From: a virus
Virus record (IMG/VR): IMGVR_UViG_3300043397_000067
Coordinates: 16,015 to 80,014 of that record
Length of the DNA: 64,000 bases
Reading direction: 5' to 3' (one strand)
In this document: in pieces, positions 11,039-51,830 of the stretch
Numbering within the stretch: the stretch's first letter is position 1
Layout: each line of letters opens with the position of its first letter
Program-made: the position numbers and the translations under genes
Notes under the pieces: generated by a model
The model's input: the letters and a program-made list of their open reading frames with translations, nothing else
Told to the model about the DNA's origin: nothing
Databases searched by the model: none

Positions 11039-12041
11039 CGTACATGCTGGCGCTATACGCAGCGCCGGTACTACACCGTTCTCGCAGTTCGCGCTAAGAA
11101 CGCACATCCTAAATAAGTTTGAGGAACTACTACCTGAGTCTGGCGACTTAATGATTCTTGGCGACCTATTTGACACCAATAACGTACCGCTATGGGACGT
11201 TAGCAAGGTGCTGTTTATGTTGTCAAAGTGGGTGACAAATAGGCCCGGTAGCACGCTGTACCTAGTCAGAGGCAATCACGATATCAGCAAGACTTCAAAC
11301 GTAATGTCTAGCTTTGACTTTCTAGGCACCATGCTTAAGGTTCACGATAACGTAATGGTTATTACAGAGCCAACAGCTATCAAGTACGGCTACGTTATCC
11401 CCCACCTGATAAATCAGGACCTATTCGATCAGGCACTTGCCTCAGTGCCCAAGTGCGATAATCTATTCTTGCACTGCAACTACGATAACAACTTTGCTGC
11501 TCAAAGCGACCAGTCCCTAAACCTTAGCGCGGAGCAAGCCAAAGTCTGCCTAGCAAGCAGAATCGTCATTGCACACGAACACCATGCAAGGTCACTGGGC
11601 AAGGTGGTTATTCCCGGAAACCAGATAGCAAGTTCAGTGTCTGACTGGTTATCTCCGGGTGACAAGCAGTACGCTACTATAAACGCCAGCAACGAGCTTG
11701 CACTTGTCAAGTGTGCGGATAGAAGTACAGAGTATGCTGAACTTGACTATACATCGGACTTTACCTCGTGTGATGCTAAGTTTATTCGCATAACTGGTAC
11801 TGTAGCAGCAGATACGGCAAGCAAGCTAATTACTGCAGTATCCAAGTTTAGGCAAAGAAGTAGCGCGCTGGTCATTACATCAGCAGTAAAGACGTTATCG
11901 GAAGATGGCAGCGAAACATTTGAAGCTGCCTTGGAAGAGGCTAAGAACTTCTCTGTCATGGAAGCCCTTAAAGACTTCCTCACTCAAGACGAATACACAA
12001 AACTGGAGAAGCTTCATGCTAAACGAGCTAACACTAACTAA
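11019..12041 (+). CDS. sbcD: SbcD/Mre11-like nuclease subunit
   Basis: A 340-aa calcineurin-type phosphoesterase. The metal-binding motifs are in order: NDVHAG near the start, GDLFDTNN around residue 50, VRGNHDIS around 90, FLHCNYD and AHEHHAR further on. It is the nuclease half of an SbcCD/gp46-gp47 complex that trims DNA ends and opens hairpins for recombination. Its end overlaps the start of the SbcC gene by 26 bases, as expected for equal production of partners. The start overlaps the preceding nuclease by 20 bases. Confidence 0.9.
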   Translation: MLTILNDVHAGAIRSAGTTPFSQFALRTHILNKFEELLPESGDLMILGDLFDTNNVPLWDVSKVLFMLSKWVTNRPGSTLYLVRGNHDISKTSNVMSSFDFLGTMLKVHDNVMVITEPTAIKYGYVIPHLINQDLFDQALASVPKCDNLFLHCNYDNNFAAQSDQSLNLSAEQAKVCLASRIVIAHEHHARSLGKVVIPGNQIASSVSDWLSPGDKQYATINASNELALVKCADRSTEYAELDYTSDFTSCDAKFIRITGTVAADTASKLITAVSKFRQRSSALVITSAVKTLSEDGSETFEAALEEAKNFSVMEALKDFLTQDEYTKLEKLHAKRANTN

Positions 12042-14067
12042 ATTTAGGCAGCATGAGTCTAAGGTAGTAAACTTTACATCGGGCCTTAACGTCATCCGTG
12101 GCGCTAACGAAGCAGGCAAGAGTACTATCTTTGAGGCTATCATGTACGCCTTCTACGGGGCACGGGGTCTGCGTGAGTCGTTGGATGATGCCGTGACATG
12201 GGGTAACCCGGCGTCGCAACTCAGGGTTAAGTTAGTGTTCACTCACTTAGGCGTCAAGTTCACCATCACCCGGTCAAAGTCGGGCGCAGAGCTTGTCGGA
12301 CCCGGAGTGACGGCCTCGGGCCAGTCTGAGGTCACCAACTTCGTCACGGCCTTGTTTGGTGCCCCGCTTGACGTTGCCAAGGCCATCCTCATGGCGAAAC
12401 AAGGCGGCTTGCAGGAATCCCTCGACGGCTCTAGTGTACGGATGATTGAGCAACTTGCTAATGTCCAACTGATAGACAAGCTCATTGAGTGGGTGCAGCT
12501 TGACTTGTCTACTGGAAACACTAGCTCGCTGGTCAAGCAACTACAAGACTACCGCGATATGGTAGCCCCAGTGTTAGATACCGCAGAAGCTGACGCTAAA
12601 GTATCTACACTAACTTCCCGAGTTGAGGCAGTTAAAGCAAACCTTGAGTTGGTAGAAGCTAAAATCGCTAACCTGCAGTGGGCACCACCTGTGATAGCAG
12701 CTAGGGCGGACTATAACGCTAAGCGGGAAGCTTTGGATAGTACGCTTACGCGCCTGCAAACTACACTGCCGTCAGTACCAGAGCCGGTAGAAGATAACTC
12801 CAAGGAGTTAGAAGCAGCGGCTGCTGAACAGACTCGCAACAAGGAGCTTCAAGGCAACTACATGAAGTATGCAGCTTTCGTACAGCCTAAAGTCGATAGT
12901 AAATACACATCAAGAAGTGAGGCAGACGCTCACCGTGAGAAACTTCAAGAAGAAATTCGCGCTATTACGAAAGGGTTATCAGATACTAGCACTAAGATAG
13001 CGGTAGAACTATCAAAGAAAATTACAGAAACAGCCTGCGGACTATGCGGTAAAGACTTATCACAGGTGCCAGAAGTTGTAGAGAAGAATAAGGTAATAGA
13101 TAGCACCATCGCGGCCCTTAAGGTTAGTAAAGCTAGCTTAGAGGCAAATCTTAGCGCCTATAACCTGCAACTGAGCGGTTTGATAGAGTTGCTTAAAGCA
13201 GACTCTGCTGCTAGAAATACAGCAGCAGGTATCCCCCACCTTGAGGAATATCCCACCTTTCCTGCCACCTACGGATGGGCTGGCGGTATTCCAGTAGTAA
13301 CTTACGTTGACTATGCAAAACAGTTAAAGGAGCTTACTACAAAGCTTGCACAAAGAGAAGCTGCTTTGCATCAGTATAACAAGGTTCAGACGGCTATAGA
13401 GGTTACTAGGGTCAACATATCAAGGTTGTACAACCCTGTGCAATCAGAAGTTGACATGGCTAATGAAGCATTTGCTGAGTTGACGTTAGCAGCTACACGT
13501 AAGAATGAATCTATTGACGAGCGTAGGCGGCTGGAATCTCAGCTTTCTGAGGCTAGGCACACCCTAGCGATTTTGGAGACGCGCCATACGGAGCAGATGA
13601 AGGCTTTTACACAGGCTCAATCTCAGGCCTCGGTAGTAGAGTCTAGTATCAGGGAGATGACAGATAACAATCTCTTGATTAAGAAGCTGAGGGAAGCAAG
13701 GCCGTCAGTAACTAACCGCTTATGGAATACTGTACTTGGTACAGTAACCAGTTACTTCTCACAACTTCGTGGTGTTCATACAGTAGTAGGGCGTAAAGAT
13801 GACTGCTTCACGCTTGACGGCAAGAAGCATACATCCTATAGTGGTTCTACCCAAGACTGCCTTGGCCTTGCCATTCGTGCTACCCTGCAAAAGACCTTCA
13901 TGGCCGGCTGTGACTTCACCACGTATGACGAGCCTGCAAGTGGGTGTGACTTAGCGCGGGAAAGCGATATGCTAGCGATGCTATCGACTTGTGGGTTTGA
14001 GCAGGTACTGCTCGTCACCCACAGCGACTTAGCAGACGCTTACGCTACTAACTTCATCCAGATATAG
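12016..14067 (+). CDS. sbcC: SbcC/Rad50-like ATPase subunit
   Basis: A 683-aa SMC-type ATPase. The start at 12016 is chosen because the protein then begins MLNELTLTKFRQHES, the normal first strand of Rad50/SbcC; an open frame further upstream overlaps sbcD only. Walker A is GANEAGKST (about 35-43). Long coiled coils flank a zinc hook whose CxxC is Cys341-Cys344 (ACGLCGKD). The C-terminus has an ABC signature-like SGSTQDCLGLAIR and Walker B TTYDEPASG. It works with SbcD as an end-processing complex. The coiled coil is short compared with cellular SbcC, as in phage gp46 proteins. Confidence 0.92.
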   Translation: MLNELTLTKFRQHESKVVNFTSGLNVIRGANEAGKSTIFEAIMYAFYGARGLRESLDDAVTWGNPASQLRVKLVFTHLGVKFTITRSKSGAELVGPGVTASGQSEVTNFVTALFGAPLDVAKAILMAKQGGLQESLDGSSVRMIEQLANVQLIDKLIEWVQLDLSTGNTSSLVKQLQDYRDMVAPVLDTAEADAKVSTLTSRVEAVKANLELVEAKIANLQWAPPVIAARADYNAKREALDSTLTRLQTTLPSVPEPVEDNSKELEAAAAEQTRNKELQGNYMKYAAFVQPKVDSKYTSRSEADAHREKLQEEIRAITKGLSDTSTKIAVELSKKITETACGLCGKDLSQVPEVVEKNKVIDSTIAALKVSKASLEANLSAYNLQLSGLIELLKADSAARNTAAGIPHLEEYPTFPATYGWAGGIPVVTYVDYAKQLKELTTKLAQREAALHQYNKVQTAIEVTRVNISRLYNPVQSEVDMANEAFAELTLAATRKNESIDERRRLESQLSEARHTLAILETRHTEQMKAFTQAQSQASVVESSIREMTDNNLLIKKLREARPSVTNRLWNTVLGTVTSYFSQLRGVHTVVGRKDDCFTLDGKKHTSYSGSTQDCLGLAIRATLQKTFMAGCDFTTYDEPASGCDLARESDMLAMLSTCGFEQVLLVTHSDLADAYATNFIQI

Positions 14068-14093
14068 TAAAGGGAGCCTAGGCTCCCTTTACT
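14066..14093. terminator. Bidirectional terminator (perfect 13-bp palindrome)
   Basis: Arms AGTAAAGGGAGCC and GGCTCCCTTTACT are exact inverse complements separated by TA. It lies exactly between convergent sbcC and the last lysis gene and overlaps both stop codons. A-rich and T-rich flanks are present on each side, so it can stop transcription from both directions. Confidence 0.9.
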
Positions 14094-14682
14094 ACTTAGG
14101 TTCAGCGGACTTTGGAGGTCGGGTCCCGAACCAGAAAAGGGATACTGTAGTCCAAACATATAAAATAGTAGAGACTATTTGTACAACAATACCGGTTATC
14201 TGTTCAGGTGTAAATGAAATACCATGAACGTCCATCAGATTACGTGCCCACACAAACATGTAGGTCACAAGTACGCAAAGATACGCTGTCATCCCGGGGC
14301 GGATAAAGCCGCGCAGGAAGTCAACGAAACCCATCATCAAGGTCACAGCGCCACCCACAAAGCCGGGGCGGCTCTGGGCACCTTTATCAAGGTAGGTAGC
14401 CTTGTCATTCTCAAGTGCAGCAATCAAGGACTTGGAGGCGGCTTCATCGCCTCGCGCCTCTGCATCAACCTCTGCCATACTGACTTCGGCAGCGTTACGA
14501 GAATCCGCTCTAGCAGACTCAAGCTTTGACAGCTCAAGCGTGTTCTGGTGGTTCAGCTTGATGATTTCAATATCTTGCTTCTTATGCTGCAAGTCAAAGT
14601 AGCGTTGCAGCAATACTCCGATAAGGCCAGTAGCCCCGCCAGAAAGAACACTTGTAAACAGTCCACCAATAATTTCTAGCAT
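14092..14682 (-). CDS. Holin-like membrane protein (3-TM type)
   Basis: A 196-aa protein with an N-terminal hydrophobic segment (about 1-25, LEIIGGLFTSVLSGGATG), a charged helical middle (30-105), and two later membrane segments (about 115-145 and 163-188). The stretch FIRPGMTAYLCVLVTYMFVW resembles, from memory, three-helix holins of the gene-transfer-agent type. It is the last gene of the lysis cassette and overlaps the endolysin stop region by 7 bases. A holin makes the inner-membrane hole that frees the endolysin. The assignment rests on topology and position. Confidence 0.6.
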   Translation of the reverse strand: MLEIIGGLFTSVLSGGATGLIGVLLQRYFDLQHKKQDIEIIKLNHQNTLELSKLESARADSRNAAEVSMAEVDAEARGDEAASKSLIAALENDKATYLDKGAQSRPGFVGGAVTLMMGFVDFLRGFIRPGMTAYLCVLVTYMFVWARNLMDVHGISFTPEQITGIVVQIVSTILYVWTTVSLFWFGTRPPKSAEPK

Positions 14683-34487: not shown

Positions 34488-36131
34488 GTGAACAAGTTTG
34501 AGGAATTCGTAGCAAAGGCTGGCCCAGTCCATGAGGGTAAGTACACATACTTATCTATAGGTACTGGAAAACGTAGAAAGATAGTTTATCAGTGTTCTAC
34601 TCACGGAGTCAAGGAGCAGGACGCTACAGCACACCTAAGAGGTGCTGGATGTGTGGACTGTTCCTATGAGCTTAGAGCCGCTAATAAAAAACTAACGCTA
34701 GAGCAGGCTATTAAAAGGATAGGGTCAAAACATAATAATAAGTACAGTTACTTAAGAATTGGCACTAACTCAGCCAATAAGTCCACTGTAGTGTATGTAT
34801 GTAATAAACATGGAGAGCAAGAGCAGTCCCTAAATGACCACGCTAACGGACACTCATGCTGTGGCTACGATACTTTAAAAGTAAGTAACTCTGATAGGTA
34901 TGAGGACTACTTAGCTAAAGCTATTAAAATCCATGGCAATAAATACACGTATAAACCGTCTGATATAGAAGGTTACTTTTTAATCACATGCCCTACACAT
35001 GGAGAGTTTCATAAGAGATTTACAAGCCATGTACACTCCGAAGAAGGGTGTAAGAATTGTGCTTATGAAGCCTTCGGTAAGTCCATAAGGTACGACTTTG
35101 AAGACTACTGCAGTAGAGCATCTACAGCTCATAATAATAGATATACATATACTGAACTTATATACGGTAAAGGTCGTACACTTATAAGAGCTGTATGTAG
35201 AGAACACGGAGAATTCATACAGAATGCTAAAGACCACTTATCTAAGCTGACTAACTGCCCTAAGTGCAGTAATAGCGGTGTGTCTGCACCTTCTATAGAG
35301 TTATCTGAATACTTAAGCCAGTTCGGTTTAGTAGAGAGTGAATATAGAGTAGAGGGTTGCAGGTTAAGATGGGATATAAAATATAGTAATACTTTAATAG
35401 AGTACGACGGCCTATACTGGCATTCGTCACAGCATAAGAGTAACGCGTACCATAGCGAAAAAAGACGCTTAGCAGAGTCGTCAGGATTTAGTCAAATAAA
35501 TATATTTAGTGATGAGTGGACTAATAAGAAAGCTTTAGTAAAGCGGCTGTTGCTTAATAGGCTTGGATTATCAACAGAGTCTACAGTCTATGCTAGAAAT
35601 ACTGTAGTATGTATTGTAGATTCAAAAAAAGCTAGTGAGTTCCTAGACTTATACCATATACAGGGCTATAAAAAATCTAGTCACTATGTTGGATTAGTAT
35701 ATAGTGGAGAAGTAATAGCTATAATAGGCTATGAAATGCGTGAGTCTGGCAGAGGTAAAACAACGTCTAGCAGCCACATGGAAATTACCCGGTACACAAC
35801 AAGCTGTTCTGTACCGGGTGGGTTCAGTAAATTACTTAGCTTCCTTATAAAGAATAGCCCCGACTTAGTTGAGGTATATACATTCTCAGATAAAAGGCTA
35901 TTTTCTGGTACGTTATACGAACGCTGTGGGTTCAAAAAAGTAGCCACTGTAAGACCTAGCTACTTCTACACTGATGGGGTTAGTAGGTATGACAAGTCTT
36001 CATACCAAAAAAGTAAGTTAGCTACTATGACCAACAAAGTTGGCACTGAGGAAGAAATGGCTGCTTCTCTTGGGCTATACAGGGTTTATGACTGCGGTAA
36101 AGTGAAGTGGTCTAAGCGAATCAGCAAATAA
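34488..36131 (+). CDS. Free-standing homing endonuclease, Vsr-like, with zinc-finger repeats and GNAT-like tail
   Basis: A 547-aa mobile endonuclease gene on the strand opposite to the structural operon. Residues ~4-260 hold four copies of a ~60-residue zinc module (..F..A...H..KY.Y....C..HG....H..GC..C). Residues ~265-355 form a Vsr/EDxHD-like nuclease (IELSEYL, LRWDIKYSNTLIEYDGLYWHS, FSDEW). Residues ~375-510 resemble an acetyltransferase-like domain often fused to such nucleases (VPGGFSKLLSFLI, YTFSDKRLFSGTLYERCGFKKV). The gene is clearly more AT-rich than its neighbours, a sign of transfer. It would cut alleles lacking it and so spread during co-infection. Confidence 0.85.
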   Translation: MNKFEEFVAKAGPVHEGKYTYLSIGTGKRRKIVYQCSTHGVKEQDATAHLRGAGCVDCSYELRAANKKLTLEQAIKRIGSKHNNKYSYLRIGTNSANKSTVVYVCNKHGEQEQSLNDHANGHSCCGYDTLKVSNSDRYEDYLAKAIKIHGNKYTYKPSDIEGYFLITCPTHGEFHKRFTSHVHSEEGCKNCAYEAFGKSIRYDFEDYCSRASTAHNNRYTYTELIYGKGRTLIRAVCREHGEFIQNAKDHLSKLTNCPKCSNSGVSAPSIELSEYLSQFGLVESEYRVEGCRLRWDIKYSNTLIEYDGLYWHSSQHKSNAYHSEKRRLAESSGFSQINIFSDEWTNKKALVKRLLLNRLGLSTESTVYARNTVVCIVDSKKASEFLDLYHIQGYKKSSHYVGLVYSGEVIAIIGYEMRESGRGKTTSSSHMEITRYTTSCSVPGGFSKLLSFLIKNSPDLVEVYTFSDKRLFSGTLYERCGFKKVATVRPSYFYTDGVSRYDKSSYQKSKLATMTNKVGTEEEMAASLGLYRVYDCGKVKWSKRISK

Positions 36132-36158
36132 ATAAGGGACCCTAGGGTCCCTTATTTA
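36129..36158. terminator. Bidirectional palindromic terminator
   Basis: A perfect 14-bp inverted repeat with TA centre (core GGGACCCTAGGGTCCC). It overlaps the endonuclease stop codon and lies 18 bases from the end of the convergent capsid gene. It stops both transcripts and has the same design and CCTAGG-type centre as the terminator at 14066. Confidence 0.88.
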
Positions 36159-46083: not shown

Positions 46084-46115
46084 GTTATCATCCGGTCGGT
46101 TGACCGGATGATAAC
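46084..46115 (-). promoter_or_regulatory. Perfect 14-bp hairpin before portal start
   Basis: Arms 46084-46097 and 46102-46115 are exact inverse complements with loop GGTT. There is no U-run. On the minus strand it fills the whole gap between the terminase stop and the portal ATG. It may be an RNA processing site or a translation control element. Confidence 0.65.
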
Positions 46116-46119
46116 TTCC

Positions 46120-47808
46120 TTACGAGTATTCCTTGGGCCTAAACGCTACCAAAAGTGGAGTTCTCCCCGGTTCCGTCCACCCACTTACAGTGCCTAGCAG
46201 GGTAGTAGCAAGGAACATGTACATCAGTGAGAAGAAGTAGTGATCTTGCCCATCAGTCTTCTGCCAACTGAAAACAAGTTCATCATTTTGGAATATCTTA
46301 GTGCGCTTCAAGCTCAAGTAGTGCTCTTGCAGCACACCATCATCTGCTCCCTTTGAGATAAATATCTTATTTTCCTTGAATATCTCAAGCAGCTTATCAA
46401 ATGCAGCAGTACGGTTAATCTTTAGCAAGCGCAAGTTGAGCTTACCCTCTTCTGCATCCTCGTCTTTATCAGCCACAGTGTACATCTGCGGATTCTTGGA
46501 TGTTGTAAACACTGCACCATAAGCATTAGTATCTACTTCGCAGACTGACATAATCTCAGAAACATAAGGTTGTACGTCATGAACTGAGATAACTACCCGG
46601 TATTGGCGTATAAGCTCAAGGCGTCTTTCCCTGAACTTTGATAGTGGCACCATCTCTCTATGCACTACAAGCAACAAGCCTTCGTTAGACAGCCTGCCGA
46701 TAGTCACAGCGCACAGTAAGCCCATGTCAAAGCCCATGAAATGTATAGCACTGCTAGACAAATCCGCTTGTACAAGTGCCTTGCTTATATCCGCTGCCGT
46801 CAACTGCTCATTAGTATCTTCGCTTGTCTCACCTAATACCTGATTTTGCCACTCTGCTCTTGTATTGAACTCCGTACTTGTTCGTACCAAATACGCTGGC
46901 ACAAGCAAGCGGCAAGCAGTGACCGGTGTAACGTAGTGCGTATGTGCTTCATAGTTATCATCTGGGTTTTCTACTACCCACTCAAGTTTTGTAGGGTCAA
47001 GTTGTGGGTCGCGCCTGCAAGCAGGGCACATCCAGTGGGCTTTTTGCCACTGATAGTCCTTGATGTTGTATTTCGTTAACCCTTTAAGGTCATCATAGTA
47101 GCCCGGAATCACAATATCTGTATGGTAACTTGGCAACCACTTATGGCCACAGCAGTTGCATATACCCATGTGGCGTATGCGCTTTGAAGTCTCTGCTTCC
47201 TTAGAAATTCCCACACCTTCTTGTGTAGGAGTACTAAACTGCCTGATAATCTGGTGCTTAGAGGCTTGCAAGCGGCTTCTGAACTGCTTCAAGGTGTCCG
47301 GGTCACATCGGTCTATCTCGTCGGCTACAAGGCAGTCTGCGCTGATAGACAAGGCTGCAGTTTCTGATCTAGTTCCGCGAATAAACAAGAAATTGCCGTT
47401 GATTTCCTTTAACTCTGTAGAGTCTACATTGACGTTTAGCAAGCGCTTAAGGTCAGGACTACCGTAAAGTATGGGATTTACTTTGGTAATTGTCAGTTTT
47501 GTTGCATCATTGGTCGATGGCAAGGCATAAATAACGTTAAACTGTTTTTGTGTAGCAAGGGCAGATAGAAAGTAGCAGATTGTGCTGACAGTCAAGCCGA
47601 TTTGTGCTGGTTTGACTGTGTTCGTTACGCGTGAATCGTCATTAAGAATGGCTCGCTGGAACTCATAACCACCCGTAAAAGACAGCTTTTTGCTCTCTAA
47701 AATGATGTGTTTTTCTGCATAACTTGCTAAATTGTGCAGGTGAAATACGTTATTTAGGCCGTCTTCTATGCGTTTATAGTGGTCATTTAGCACTTCCTGC
47801 CCTTTCAA
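46120..47808 (-). CDS. terL: Terminase large subunit (GpA-like)
   Basis: A 562-aa packaging motor. The ATPase has a Walker A-like NTVKPAQIGLT (Lys66-Thr73) and Walker B CLVADEID (Asp163-Asp166). A zinc site CNCC (217-220)/CPAC (261-264) lies between ATPase and nuclease as in lambda GpA relatives. The nuclease starts with FMGFDMGLL (Asp361). It cuts concatemers and pumps DNA into proheads. It overlaps the upstream small gene by 26 bases. GpA-type enzymes usually make defined ends, but the end type cannot be told here. Confidence 0.93.
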   Translation of the reverse strand: MKGQEVLNDHYKRIEDGLNNVFHLHNLASYAEKHIILESKKLSFTGGYEFQRAILNDDSRVTNTVKPAQIGLTVSTICYFLSALATQKQFNVIYALPSTNDATKLTITKVNPILYGSPDLKRLLNVNVDSTELKEINGNFLFIRGTRSETAALSISADCLVADEIDRCDPDTLKQFRSRLQASKHQIIRQFSTPTQEGVGISKEAETSKRIRHMGICNCCGHKWLPSYHTDIVIPGYYDDLKGLTKYNIKDYQWQKAHWMCPACRRDPQLDPTKLEWVVENPDDNYEAHTHYVTPVTACRLLVPAYLVRTSTEFNTRAEWQNQVLGETSEDTNEQLTAADISKALVQADLSSSAIHFMGFDMGLLCAVTIGRLSNEGLLLVVHREMVPLSKFRERRLELIRQYRVVISVHDVQPYVSEIMSVCEVDTNAYGAVFTTSKNPQMYTVADKDEDAEEGKLNLRLLKINRTAAFDKLLEIFKENKIFISKGADDGVLQEHYLSLKRTKIFQNDELVFSWQKTDGQDHYFFSLMYMFLATTLLGTVSGWTEPGRTPLLVAFRPKEYS

Positions 47809-48607: not shown

Positions 48608-48664
48608 CTGTCCACAACTTATCCACAATGTGTATACGTCCAGCTGTGGATAACTTGTGGATAT
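48608..48664. promoter_or_regulatory. DnaA-box cluster beside AT-rich DNA
   Basis: TTATCCACA (48619-48627) and TGTGGATAA (48645-48653) are perfect DnaA boxes on opposite strands. TGTGGATAT (48656-48664) and CTGTCCACA (48608-48616) differ by about one base from the consensus TTWTNCACA. Four sites in 57 bp next to an AT-rich stretch resembles a DnaA-dependent origin or a DnaA-controlled promoter. Confidence 0.65.
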
Positions 48665-48951: not shown

Positions 48952-49485
48952 ATGCAAACCACAAAATCTATCGCCCTATCTTTTCTCTCTGCAAAACAGC
49001 TGCAAGCGGCCGCAAACTTGGCGGAAATGTCCAGCACTGAACTGACCCTCACGGCCACGGCGGGCCGTGGCGCGGCCCGTAAAGTAGCGGCCCAAATTGT
49101 CGCCGACAATTCATTAGGCGAAGTGCTCGCCCAGTATGAAGCATCCAAATGTTCACGCCCCGAACCGCTGGCCCGGTATGTCCGGGCCTACGTGGGTCAG
49201 TATGAAAGCACGGATAAGCTGCAGGTTTGCCCGTTCAACCGGGCTGGCTTTGAAGCTTACCCACATGCGCTGCAAAGCTGGGCGCTGTCCAGCGAAAACG
49301 AAAAAACGCAGTCGGCCCGGTTGAAAGTGGCCGCGCATGTTGAAAGCGTCGTAAAGCTTGCCGCGCAAGCCTATGACAACATGAAAGCGCAGGAAGCTGC
49401 AGCGCAGGAAGCTGCAGCGCAGGAAGCTGCAGCGCAGGAAGCTGCAGCGCAGGAAGCTGCAGCGCAGGAAGCTGCAACAGCTTGA
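48952..49485 (+). CDS. Early Ala-rich protein with (AQEAA)n tail
   Basis: A 177-aa protein starting at ATG 48952 (TAGGAAA upstream). It is the first early gene right of the control region and is more GC-rich than its neighbours. Residues 1-145 are mostly helical with some Cys (LQVCPFNRAGFEAYPHALQSW). The tail is six exact copies of AQEAA, a stable single helix. No family recognised. The high GC and the repeat suggest recent gain or active change. It is followed directly by a strong terminator. Confidence 0.75.
   Translation: MQTTKSIALSFLSAKQLQAAANLAEMSSTELTLTATAGRGAARKVAAQIVADNSLGEVLAQYEASKCSRPEPLARYVRAYVGQYESTDKLQVCPFNRAGFEAYPHALQSWALSSENEKTQSARLKVAAHVESVVKLAAQAYDNMKAQEAAAQEAAAQEAAAQEAAAQEAAAQEAATA
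49387..49476 (+). repeat. Six perfect 15-bp tandem repeats
   Basis: The unit GCGCAGGAAGCTGCA occurs six times in a row without change. Each copy adds five residues (AQEAA) without breaking the frame. Identity of all copies implies recent expansion by slippage. Confidence 0.95.
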
Positions 49486-49491
49486 AACCCG

Positions 49492-49515
49492 CCGGGCCGC
49501 TATCGGCCCGGTTTT
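49492..49515 (+). terminator. Rho-independent terminator
   Basis: Perfect 8-bp stem CCGGGCCG/CGGCCCGG with loop CTAT followed by TTTT, seven bases after the stop of the early gene at 48952. Confidence 0.9.
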
Positions 49516-49546
49516 CATAGCGGCCCACAGTGGGCCGCTATGAAAA
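49512..49546. terminator. Second long hairpin, possible back-to-back terminator
   Basis: A perfect 16-bp inverted repeat with loop CAG, arms beginning TTTTCATAGCGG and ending in AAAA. It shares its T-run with the terminator just upstream and would also stop transcription coming from the right. Confidence 0.75.
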
Positions 49547-49658
49547 CCGATCTTTAAAAATTCAATGCAAGCTGAAAACCCGCCTTTAGTGGCAGGGATA
49601 AGCACGTCCGGGCCTTAGGTGGTCGCCGGGCGGAAAAGTACACTACGGGAAACCCTAC

Positions 49659-49717
49659 GGGCCGCACCTTAACCGGGCCGCTAGTGACTAACCGGGCCGC
49701 ACCTTAACCGGGCCGCT
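49659..49717 (+). repeat. 24-bp exact direct repeat, period 35
   Basis: The same 24 bases, beginning GGGCCGCACCTTAACC, occupy 49659-49682 and 49694-49717. Each copy itself contains GGGCCGC twice, so the element appears four times. Iteron-like sites or duplicated binding sites are possible. Confidence 0.85.
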
Positions 49718-49836: not shown

Positions 49837-50372
49837 ACAATCCCTTATAGTTGAGTGAACCAAAAGACAATGACATAGAATTTTCTACATCTGAGAATGT
49901 AGGGTTAGCGGGCTAGATTAGCGGCGCGACACGGTGAAAATACGGACTTTCATTTTACAATGTCATATACTGTTGACGCATAGCTGTGAAGCTATACCCC
50001 ATAAATCAGAATAACGGATTAGGGCCTATTTGCGGCCCTAGGCGCGTTGCGTTATAGCCACGCCGTCGAAAAAGTTGTCTAGTAGCTCCTGAGAGTAGGT
50101 GCGTCTGGCTTTGCGTCATTGCGGGCTGGGCTTTCGGTATGTATAGACTCCCTCCCACGTTGTAGACCTTTGCGGAATGCCTCCGCTATAGGTGGGCGTG
50201 GTTACAGTTTATATTGCAGATAGGGTAGGGATGCGAAGCGGACTTAGCAAATACGGCATAGTGACAGTGTGCCTCATGTTGCGGGAACTCATTAAGTCAA
50301 AATCCCGTTCTAGTGGTCGGATAGAGTAGACCAACGCTTATCAGTCTTGCGGAATAGACTTAACCTTAACCC

Positions 50373-50874: not shown

Positions 50875-51087
50875 ATGTTGCAACAAAGATTGGACCGGAT
50901 TAACACCCGGATTGTGGAAATCACTCCGGCCTTGTCTAAGGCTTGGGAAGACATGGTAGCCGCTAAGGCTGACCGTGACCCAACGCACCCGCTGTACAAG
51001 GCGTGGAAGGCTATCGACCTCAAGGACAGCCAGCTGCGTGAAACGCGCTCTGATCTTGAGTTCGAGCTTGAGTGCTTGGAAGACTGA
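50875..51087 (+). CDS. Small early helical protein
   Basis: A 70-aa helical protein (MLQQRLDRINTRIVEITPALSKAWEDMVAAK). The start at 50875 is supported by ATAGGAG. The last codons (..ECLED) and the following 25-bp block are repeated exactly at the end of the next gene. Function unknown. Confidence 0.75.
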   Translation: MLQQRLDRINTRIVEITPALSKAWEDMVAAKADRDPTHPLYKAWKAIDLKDSQLRETRSDLEFELECLED

Positions 51088-51395
51088 CAGGGCCAGTTAC
51101 ATAGCAGCGCGCTGCTATGTTGCGGGTATTGTTGCCCTAACTTGAAAGGAAGTGTTATGAAACACCAAGACATTATCAAGGCTGTCAAGGCACAGCACTT
51201 GCTTGAGTGTGCCAAGCTCAACATGCTCGACTATAACAAGTTGAGTCTTATCATTGCTATTGCTTGCAATATTGCGGCAGATGTGACGCAACTGCGTCAG
51301 CTTTCGTTGTTCTTGCAGTGCTTGGAAGACTGACAGGGCCAGTAATAGGGCATATGCCCTATTGCGGGGATTGTCCCTAACTTGAGAGGAATATC
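51073..51395 (+). repeat. Duplicated intergenic cassette with differing palindromes
   Basis: A 25-bp identical block (51073-51097 and 51319-51343) covers the last codons and stop of two consecutive genes. Each copy is followed by a perfect palindrome (22 bp at 51099-51120; 20 bp at 51344-51363), then by TTGCGG, a small GGG..CCC hairpin, CCTAACTTGA and a ribosome site. The palindromes have different sequences but the same layout. Confidence 0.85.
51157..51333 (+). CDS. Small early protein
   Basis: A 58-aa helical protein starting MKHQDIIKAVKAQHLL with GAAAGGAAG upstream. Its end shares the LED-stop with the preceding gene through the duplicated cassette. The rest of the protein is not similar to that gene. 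Function unknown. Confidence 0.75.
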   Translation: MKHQDIIKAVKAQHLLECAKLNMLDYNKLSLIIAIACNIAADVTQLRQLSLFLQCLED

Positions 51396-51542
51396 ATGAG
51401 AATTCTTATGTCTGTTATCGGAGTCGTAGCCATTCCTATGGCTTCGCTTGGGTCTTTGTTCAGCGTTATGACGCTGGCTGAGTGCGGTCTGCTGCTGACC
51501 ATCGCAGTCTTTTGCTGCTGTTTCGGAACGATTGGAGACTGA
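51396..51542 (+). CDS. 48-aa membrane peptide
   Basis: A small protein opening MRILMSVIGVVAIPMA with two hydrophobic segments and a Cys cluster (AVFCCCFG) near the end. GAGAGGAA precedes the ATG in the second copy of the cassette, and the stop is four bases before the next ATG. It probably inserts in the inner membrane. Possible roles include superinfection exclusion or host takeover; none is proven. Confidence 0.65.
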   Translation: MRILMSVIGVVAIPMASLGSLFSVMTLAECGLLLTIAVFCCCFGTIGD

Positions 51543-51545
51543 GCC

Positions 51546-51830
51546 ATGAAACCATTTGAAATACGTGCCAAGCTCAAGGAAATGGGCTTCAAGGAAGACC
51601 GCTACGGCAACATGCTTACCCCCAAAGGTAAGTACCGCATACACTTCAACTCTATCTCTTTGCGGGTAGAGAAGAAGCGCCAATGGGTAGACCATTTCAC
51701 GCAGAAAACCCAATCCGACTGGCAAAACCTGCGTACCGTCTACTACACCAACACTGTCATCCAAGACGGTGTGCTGCGTCTGGGCACTCTCGAACTCAAG
51801 GATTATGCTGCTACTGCTGTGGCTGCTTAG
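51546..51830 (+). CDS. Early hypothetical protein
   Basis: A 94-aa basic protein (MKPFEIRAKLKEMGFKEDRYGN.. RIHFNSISLRVEKKRQW). An alternating helix-strand pattern is seen but no family. It is tightly coupled to the membrane peptide upstream (TGAGCCATG). Confidence 0.8.
   Translation: MKPFEIRAKLKEMGFKEDRYGNMLTPKGKYRIHFNSISLRVEKKRQWVDHFTQKTQSDWQNLRTVYYTNTVIQDGVLRLGTLELKDYAATAVAA

Follow-up and report, generated by a model that had tools for sequence, protein, structure and literature searches.

Two intergenic cassettes that precede small genes in an uncultured phage may belong to a family of mRNA leaders whose hairpins process or insulate messages in the manner of the T7 RNase III sites, and whose stems have been rewritten by template switching, a combined reading that we favor while placing it a little short of even. 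The window, meaning the whole 64,000-nt stretch analyzed here, spans bases 16015–80014 of an 80,014-base virus record (G000). The ends of this record (contig 1–527 and 79488–80014) overlap by 527 nt at 91% identity, so that it appears, as far as sequence can tell, to be a near-complete circular map of ~79.5 kb broken at a variable place. With a tape measure protein, a family A DNA polymerase, a primase and an SbcC-like protein encoded in the window, and a terminase gene at 46120–47796, the phage looks like a siphovirus. The cassettes sit on the rightward strand, past a 1.4-kb non-coding stretch and among four small genes (50875–51830) of no known family and without a Pfam match, and this position suggests that the flanking genes are early genes. 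The features are as follows.

50875–51087, + strand: small gene 1 (70 aa), an open reading frame with a ribosome site, C terminus ...CLED*, no Pfam match
51071–51097, + strand: 27-bp block of cassette 1, identical to 51317–51343, overlapping the end of gene 1 (final codons and stop)
51099–51120, + strand: 22-nt perfect palindrome ACATAGCAGCGCGCTGCTATGT
51124–51137, + strand: mini-hairpin GGGTA-TTGT-TGCCC of cassette 1, from fold prediction
51135–51150, + strand: conserved tail CCCTAACTTGAAAGGA with the gene 2 ribosome site, of the same tail family as in relative G009
51157–51333, + strand: small gene 2 (58 aa), an open reading frame of no known family, C terminus ...CLED*
51317–51343, + strand: 27-bp block of cassette 2, identical to 51071–51097
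51344–51363, + strand: 20-nt perfect palindrome AATAGGGCATATGCCCTATT
51375–51390, + strand: conserved tail CCCTAACTTGAGAGGA with the gene 3 ribosome site
51396–51542, + strand: small gene 3 (48 aa), hydrophobic and membrane-protein-like

The surrounding sequence has further structure of its own. The 1.4-kb non-coding stretch contains a 41-nt near-perfect inverted repeat (49509–49549) and a 25-bp direct repeat (49658–49717), and two contigs of the same phage (L004 and L005) stop near window position 50246. The first rightward gene ends in a 15-bp tandem repeat (AQEAA, 49386–49475), and the corresponding gene of relatives L007 and L008 has different repeats. Between the leftward structural and the rightward modules lies an inverted pair of DnaA-box-like sequences (TTATCCACA / TGTGGATAA, 48611–48661), a possible origin, and a 14-bp perfect hairpin (46084–46115, fold z-score −7.4) fills the terminase–portal gap, covering the portal ribosome-site region. 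In addition to the cassette palindromes, this phage encodes, in the SbcC-like protein (12016–14064), a subunit of a nuclease that cleaves palindromes.

Both cassettes (51071–51156 and 51317–51395) run in the order 27 bp, perfect palindrome, TTGCGG, weak GGG/CCC hairpin, CCCTAACTTGA-RAGGA and ATG, with TTGCGG overlapping the 3′ end of the palindrome by 1 base in cassette 1 and by 2 in cassette 2. An earlier sequence-only reading had proposed two cassettes of one layout with different perfect palindromes of 22 and 20 bp; every part lies where it was placed, and both palindromes have the given lengths and are perfect. The shared block turned out to be 27 rather than 25 bp, and the GGG/CCC mini-hairpin is predicted in cassette 1, whereas the minimum-energy fold of cassette 2 takes other pairs. 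The upstream genes (both ...CLED*) have their final codons and stop in the first 17 bp of the block. At up to 3 mismatches CTTGGAAGACTGACAGGGCCAGT occurs twice in the window against 0.00 expected, and the block has no further copy there. As RNA, the first palindrome is predicted to form a 9-bp stem with a CGCG loop (11 bp counting lower GU/GC pairs) and the second an 8-bp stem with an ATAT loop (12 bp counting GU/GC and CC/GG extensions).

By chance, a 64-kb sequence should contain 0.06 perfect palindromes of ≥20 nt; five were observed, two of them in the cassettes. Elsewhere, two A/T-flanked 30-nt perfect palindromes lie at converging gene ends (14065–14094 and 36129–36158, the latter overlapping the end of a homing-endonuclease-like gene at 34488–36131) and are probably bidirectional terminators, and a 22-nt perfect palindrome, CTTTGCGGTATATACCGCAAAG, lies within a primase-like gene (1597–1618). 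Fold z-scores of the whole cassettes are modest (−1.6 and −3.3). The mean over 26 intergenic gaps of this phage is −1.95, so structured gaps are common in it and neither cassette is an extreme case by energy; it is the shared, homologous layout that sets the two apart.

A terminase alignment brought in phages at 55–65% terminase identity. In one of these, G009 (86.4 kb, 62% identity), the matching region contains four cassettes (C, F, G and H) with the part order of the window cassettes, namely hairpin, short hairpin, tail TGCCCTACTTCAAAGGA and start codon, and the consensus [CTTTGGTAGGCC..GGCCTACCAAAG][GGC..GCC]CTACTTCAAAGGA-N5-8-ATG. Two looser leaders (A and B) have the same layout with other stem sequences. 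The genes that follow the G009 cassettes are unrelated to each other by blastp, and a further record, G010, represents almost the same phage as G009. A covariance model (R1), built from C, F, G and H alone without any window sequence, found cassette 2 as its sole significant match in the 80-kb genome of the window phage (51338–51398, + strand, 26.1 bits, E = 1.2e-5; next match, E = 0.18). Hence, on sequence grounds, cassette 2 is homologous to the G009 cassettes and belongs to their family. Cassette 2 and its counterpart, cassette C, both precede a small hydrophobic, membrane-protein-like gene; position and hydrophobic character make small gene 3 the positional counterpart of the G009 gene, and blastp gave no significant match between the two. 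Cassette 1 was not matched by the model in the window phage genome, and its putative membership rests on its 27-bp identity and common tail with cassette 2.

Beyond G009 and G010 the family thins out. The model has weak matches in G014, G005, G006 and G015 (E = 0.01–0.3), which were left out of the count. Small genes of L008 (57% terminase identity) are likewise preceded by hairpins, of different sequence, and no shared leaders were found near relatives of an L008 early protein. In IMG/VR, neighboring proteins as queries led to no direct cassette orthologues; a 15-base core had 71 matches, about the estimated chance number and not inspected singly; and a gapped cassette pattern had only six, in unrelated sequence that looks coding. 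The tail pattern matched G009 and G010 as well as six contexts without the cassette layout. No convincing DNA match to the cassette region was found in cultured phages, no terminase relative in bacterial genomes, and no Rfam 15 family scoring close to its gathering threshold in the cassettes.

On what is presumably the early strand, each cassette separates the stop codon of a small gene from the ribosome site that serves the following one. A polycistronic mRNA would there carry a hairpin with an 8–11-bp core and usually a 3–7-nt loop, which short helices below the core often lengthen beyond small internal loops; a weaker structure would follow, and after it the AACTTGAAAGGA ribosome site. Were the genes transcribed as one message and cleaved here, the hairpin would separate each small gene's message and leave a clean folded end beside its ribosome site, with a possible effect on expression. 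In the folded leaders the main hairpin ends 22–45 nt ahead of the start codon. Geometries from predicted folds are given below as stem bp / loop nt / nt to ATG.

Window: cassette 1, 11/4/33; cassette 2, 12/4/27
G009: C, 13/4/29; F, 14/7/24; G, 20/3/22; H, 11/3/35; A, 26/4/23
T7: R0.3, 18/4/23; R0.5, 10/5/30; R1, 9/4/35

The T7 sites are those we take to lie in these particular gaps, and the yardstick is imperfect, the gap taken as R0.7 having no predicted fold. The geometry of T7-type sites, a hairpin of ~9–20 bp with a small loop and 20–35 nt to the start codon, is found here. As with the T7 early RNase III sites (R0.3, R0.5, R1, R1.1 and R1.3), there is one hairpin per gap between small early genes, at a similar distance from the start codon and with a comparable stem and loop, and the T7 stems likewise have a common portion of sequence alongside variable portions. 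Unlike T7, the phage is unrelated, the core stem is shorter than at some T7 sites, a second small hairpin and a conserved tail are added, and cleavage is presumed. RNase III-type processing or insulation is the best analogy, supported by the T7-like geometry, the G009 layout, the covariance-model match and the absent U run. Against it stand the uninterrupted 8–11-bp stems, which are short for RNase III, and the only moderate fold z-score of cassette 1.

The sequence-only reading had taken the retention of pairing under sequence change as the mark of selection on RNA or cruciform structure. Aligned, the window palindromes comprise 10 pairs, of which 4 are the same in both, 6 differ in both partners and none differs in a single partner, and with the 12 differing positions fixed and their bases random a perfect palindrome is kept in 0.14% of trials. 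Ten of the 12 differing bases form one contiguous central block (CAGCGCGCTG vs GGCATATGCC), the other two being the outermost pair. With five of the six paired changes inside this 10-nt block, independent events may number only one or two, and one template-switch or replacement event is enough to explain most of the differences. Among the G009 cassettes C, F, G and H the stem sequence is conserved, 7 of 44 main-stem cells are unpaired, and the covariation test that had been proposed found no compensatory change. Leader B exists in two versions at the overlapping G009 ends; within the stem they differ by two uncompensated changes, both in the 3′ arm, and pairing is partly retained through another register. 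The unpaired cells and these 3′-arm changes are in part what had been named as contrary evidence, arms mutating independently in relatives. The layout is conserved and the hairpin persists as stem sequences differ, but paired changes alone do not prove selection on structure. In its strong form the inference therefore fails in the relatives, and in its weak form, that a hairpin is kept at this place, it holds; the pattern looks like selection but need not reflect repeated selection.

A comparison within G009 points to how such stems may change. Between the 29-nt hairpins of F and G there are 5 differences, and these coincide with the 5 positions at which F departs from its own reverse complement; inverting F raises its identity to G from 24/29 to 28/29. 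Random placement of five substitutions reproduces this pattern in 1 of 2,000,000 simulations (~1e-6); the comparison was picked after seeing the data, and the margin is large. The sequences thus identify the two hairpins as inverted copies of each other, and we infer template switching as the cause. Bacteriophage studies first led to the proposal of template switching between the arms of inverted repeats; its two known products are homogenized arms and inverted spacers (PMC8604942), and multibase compensatory changes in RNA stems can arise in this way (PMC8794818). Multibase paired changes and spacer inversion are likewise seen here; unlike the named element families, template switching is a mutation mechanism, and here it would act between cassette copies within one phage genome. 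It would also explain the perfect centers CGCG and ATAT, which have a chance of 1 in 256 and are not required by selection on an RNA stem. Stem sequence would vary largely by template switching during replication, with the hairpin replaced or inverted and pairing restored, and the paired changes, the perfect centers and the inverted copy would each come from single events. That multi-copy mRNA leader hairpins have had their stems rewritten and flipped as units in this way, with a processing role preserved, is a possibility we hold tentatively.

The main rival to T7-like processing is a start-associated leader without cleavage, whose hairpin would hold the ribosome site accessible, shield it from the gene upstream or protect the 5′ or 3′ end of the message; a hairpin 22–45 nt upstream of the start codon is also compatible with a role in translation start or in stabilization. 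Cluster K mycobacteriophages have a short ribosome-site repeat (SAS) before many genes, and about half of the SAS are directly preceded by an imperfect inverted repeat whose spacer varies (ESAS), with 17-bp arms and one consensus kept per genome (Pope et al. 2011, PMC3203893). The arrangement here is the same, a repeated ribosome-site sequence with an inverted repeat just upstream, and the two travel together before unrelated genes. The parts are separable, though, since tail ACTTNAAAGGA is also present at places in this phage that lack a hairpin (window 62771, L083 2694), and the function of ESAS is itself not established; we consider an uncleaved leader unlikely, if still a serious contender. 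As for membership, the 13-bp GGGATAGGAGCCC (≤2 mismatches) gave one chance-level match, not at a start, and the inverted repeats are shorter than 17 bp.

A cassette kept mainly as a recombination boundary for small-gene shuffling, its palindrome needing no RNA role, is improbable. The same cassette precedes unrelated genes within one genome and gene 2 could be swapped by homologous exchange at the 27-bp repeats, but the hairpin persists where sequence identity is low and the relatives are too few to show gene swaps at the joints. The model for such a boundary, the PeSL, was reportedly described by Arbiol et al. in 2010 as an intergenic stem-loop cassette before small genes in variable regions of T4-type phages, and is said to contain an early promoter. 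The placement here is alike; unlike PeSLs, the cassettes contain no early promoter detectable by a sigma-70-like search, although the host's promoter type may differ. A T4 early-promoter-like string had no match and is given no weight. A palindrome acting as DNA, as the operator of a dimeric regulator or as a cruciform, would account for the perfect window centers, which an RNA loop does not need, and is nonetheless a good deal less probable again. The stems differ between copies, so that no single dimer site is common to them, and the relatives' centers are mostly non-palindromic (UUUA, UCAC, CUGCCAA); with both-copy palindromic centers only in this phage, the cruciform part of the sequence-only reading is disfavored. 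Stable GC-containing hairpins after stop codons could also be Rho-independent terminators or attenuators between small genes. An intrinsic terminator has a GC-rich stem followed directly by a U run; here TGCGGGTATTG and GCGGGGATTG follow the main stems, neither cassette has a U run, and the palindromes at converging gene ends lie elsewhere in the phage (14065, 36129), which makes termination the most improbable reading.

Paired changes in two stem arms are routinely taken as proof of selection on RNA structure. In this series, an evidence base of few cassette copies, the same paired pattern would come more simply from one mutation event, and the inverted copy is an independent signature that separates a single-event origin from selection. 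The cassettes also add a leader-hairpin family from uncultured phages, one with no match among records of cultured phages, to the short list of elements known to package small genes as separate expression units.
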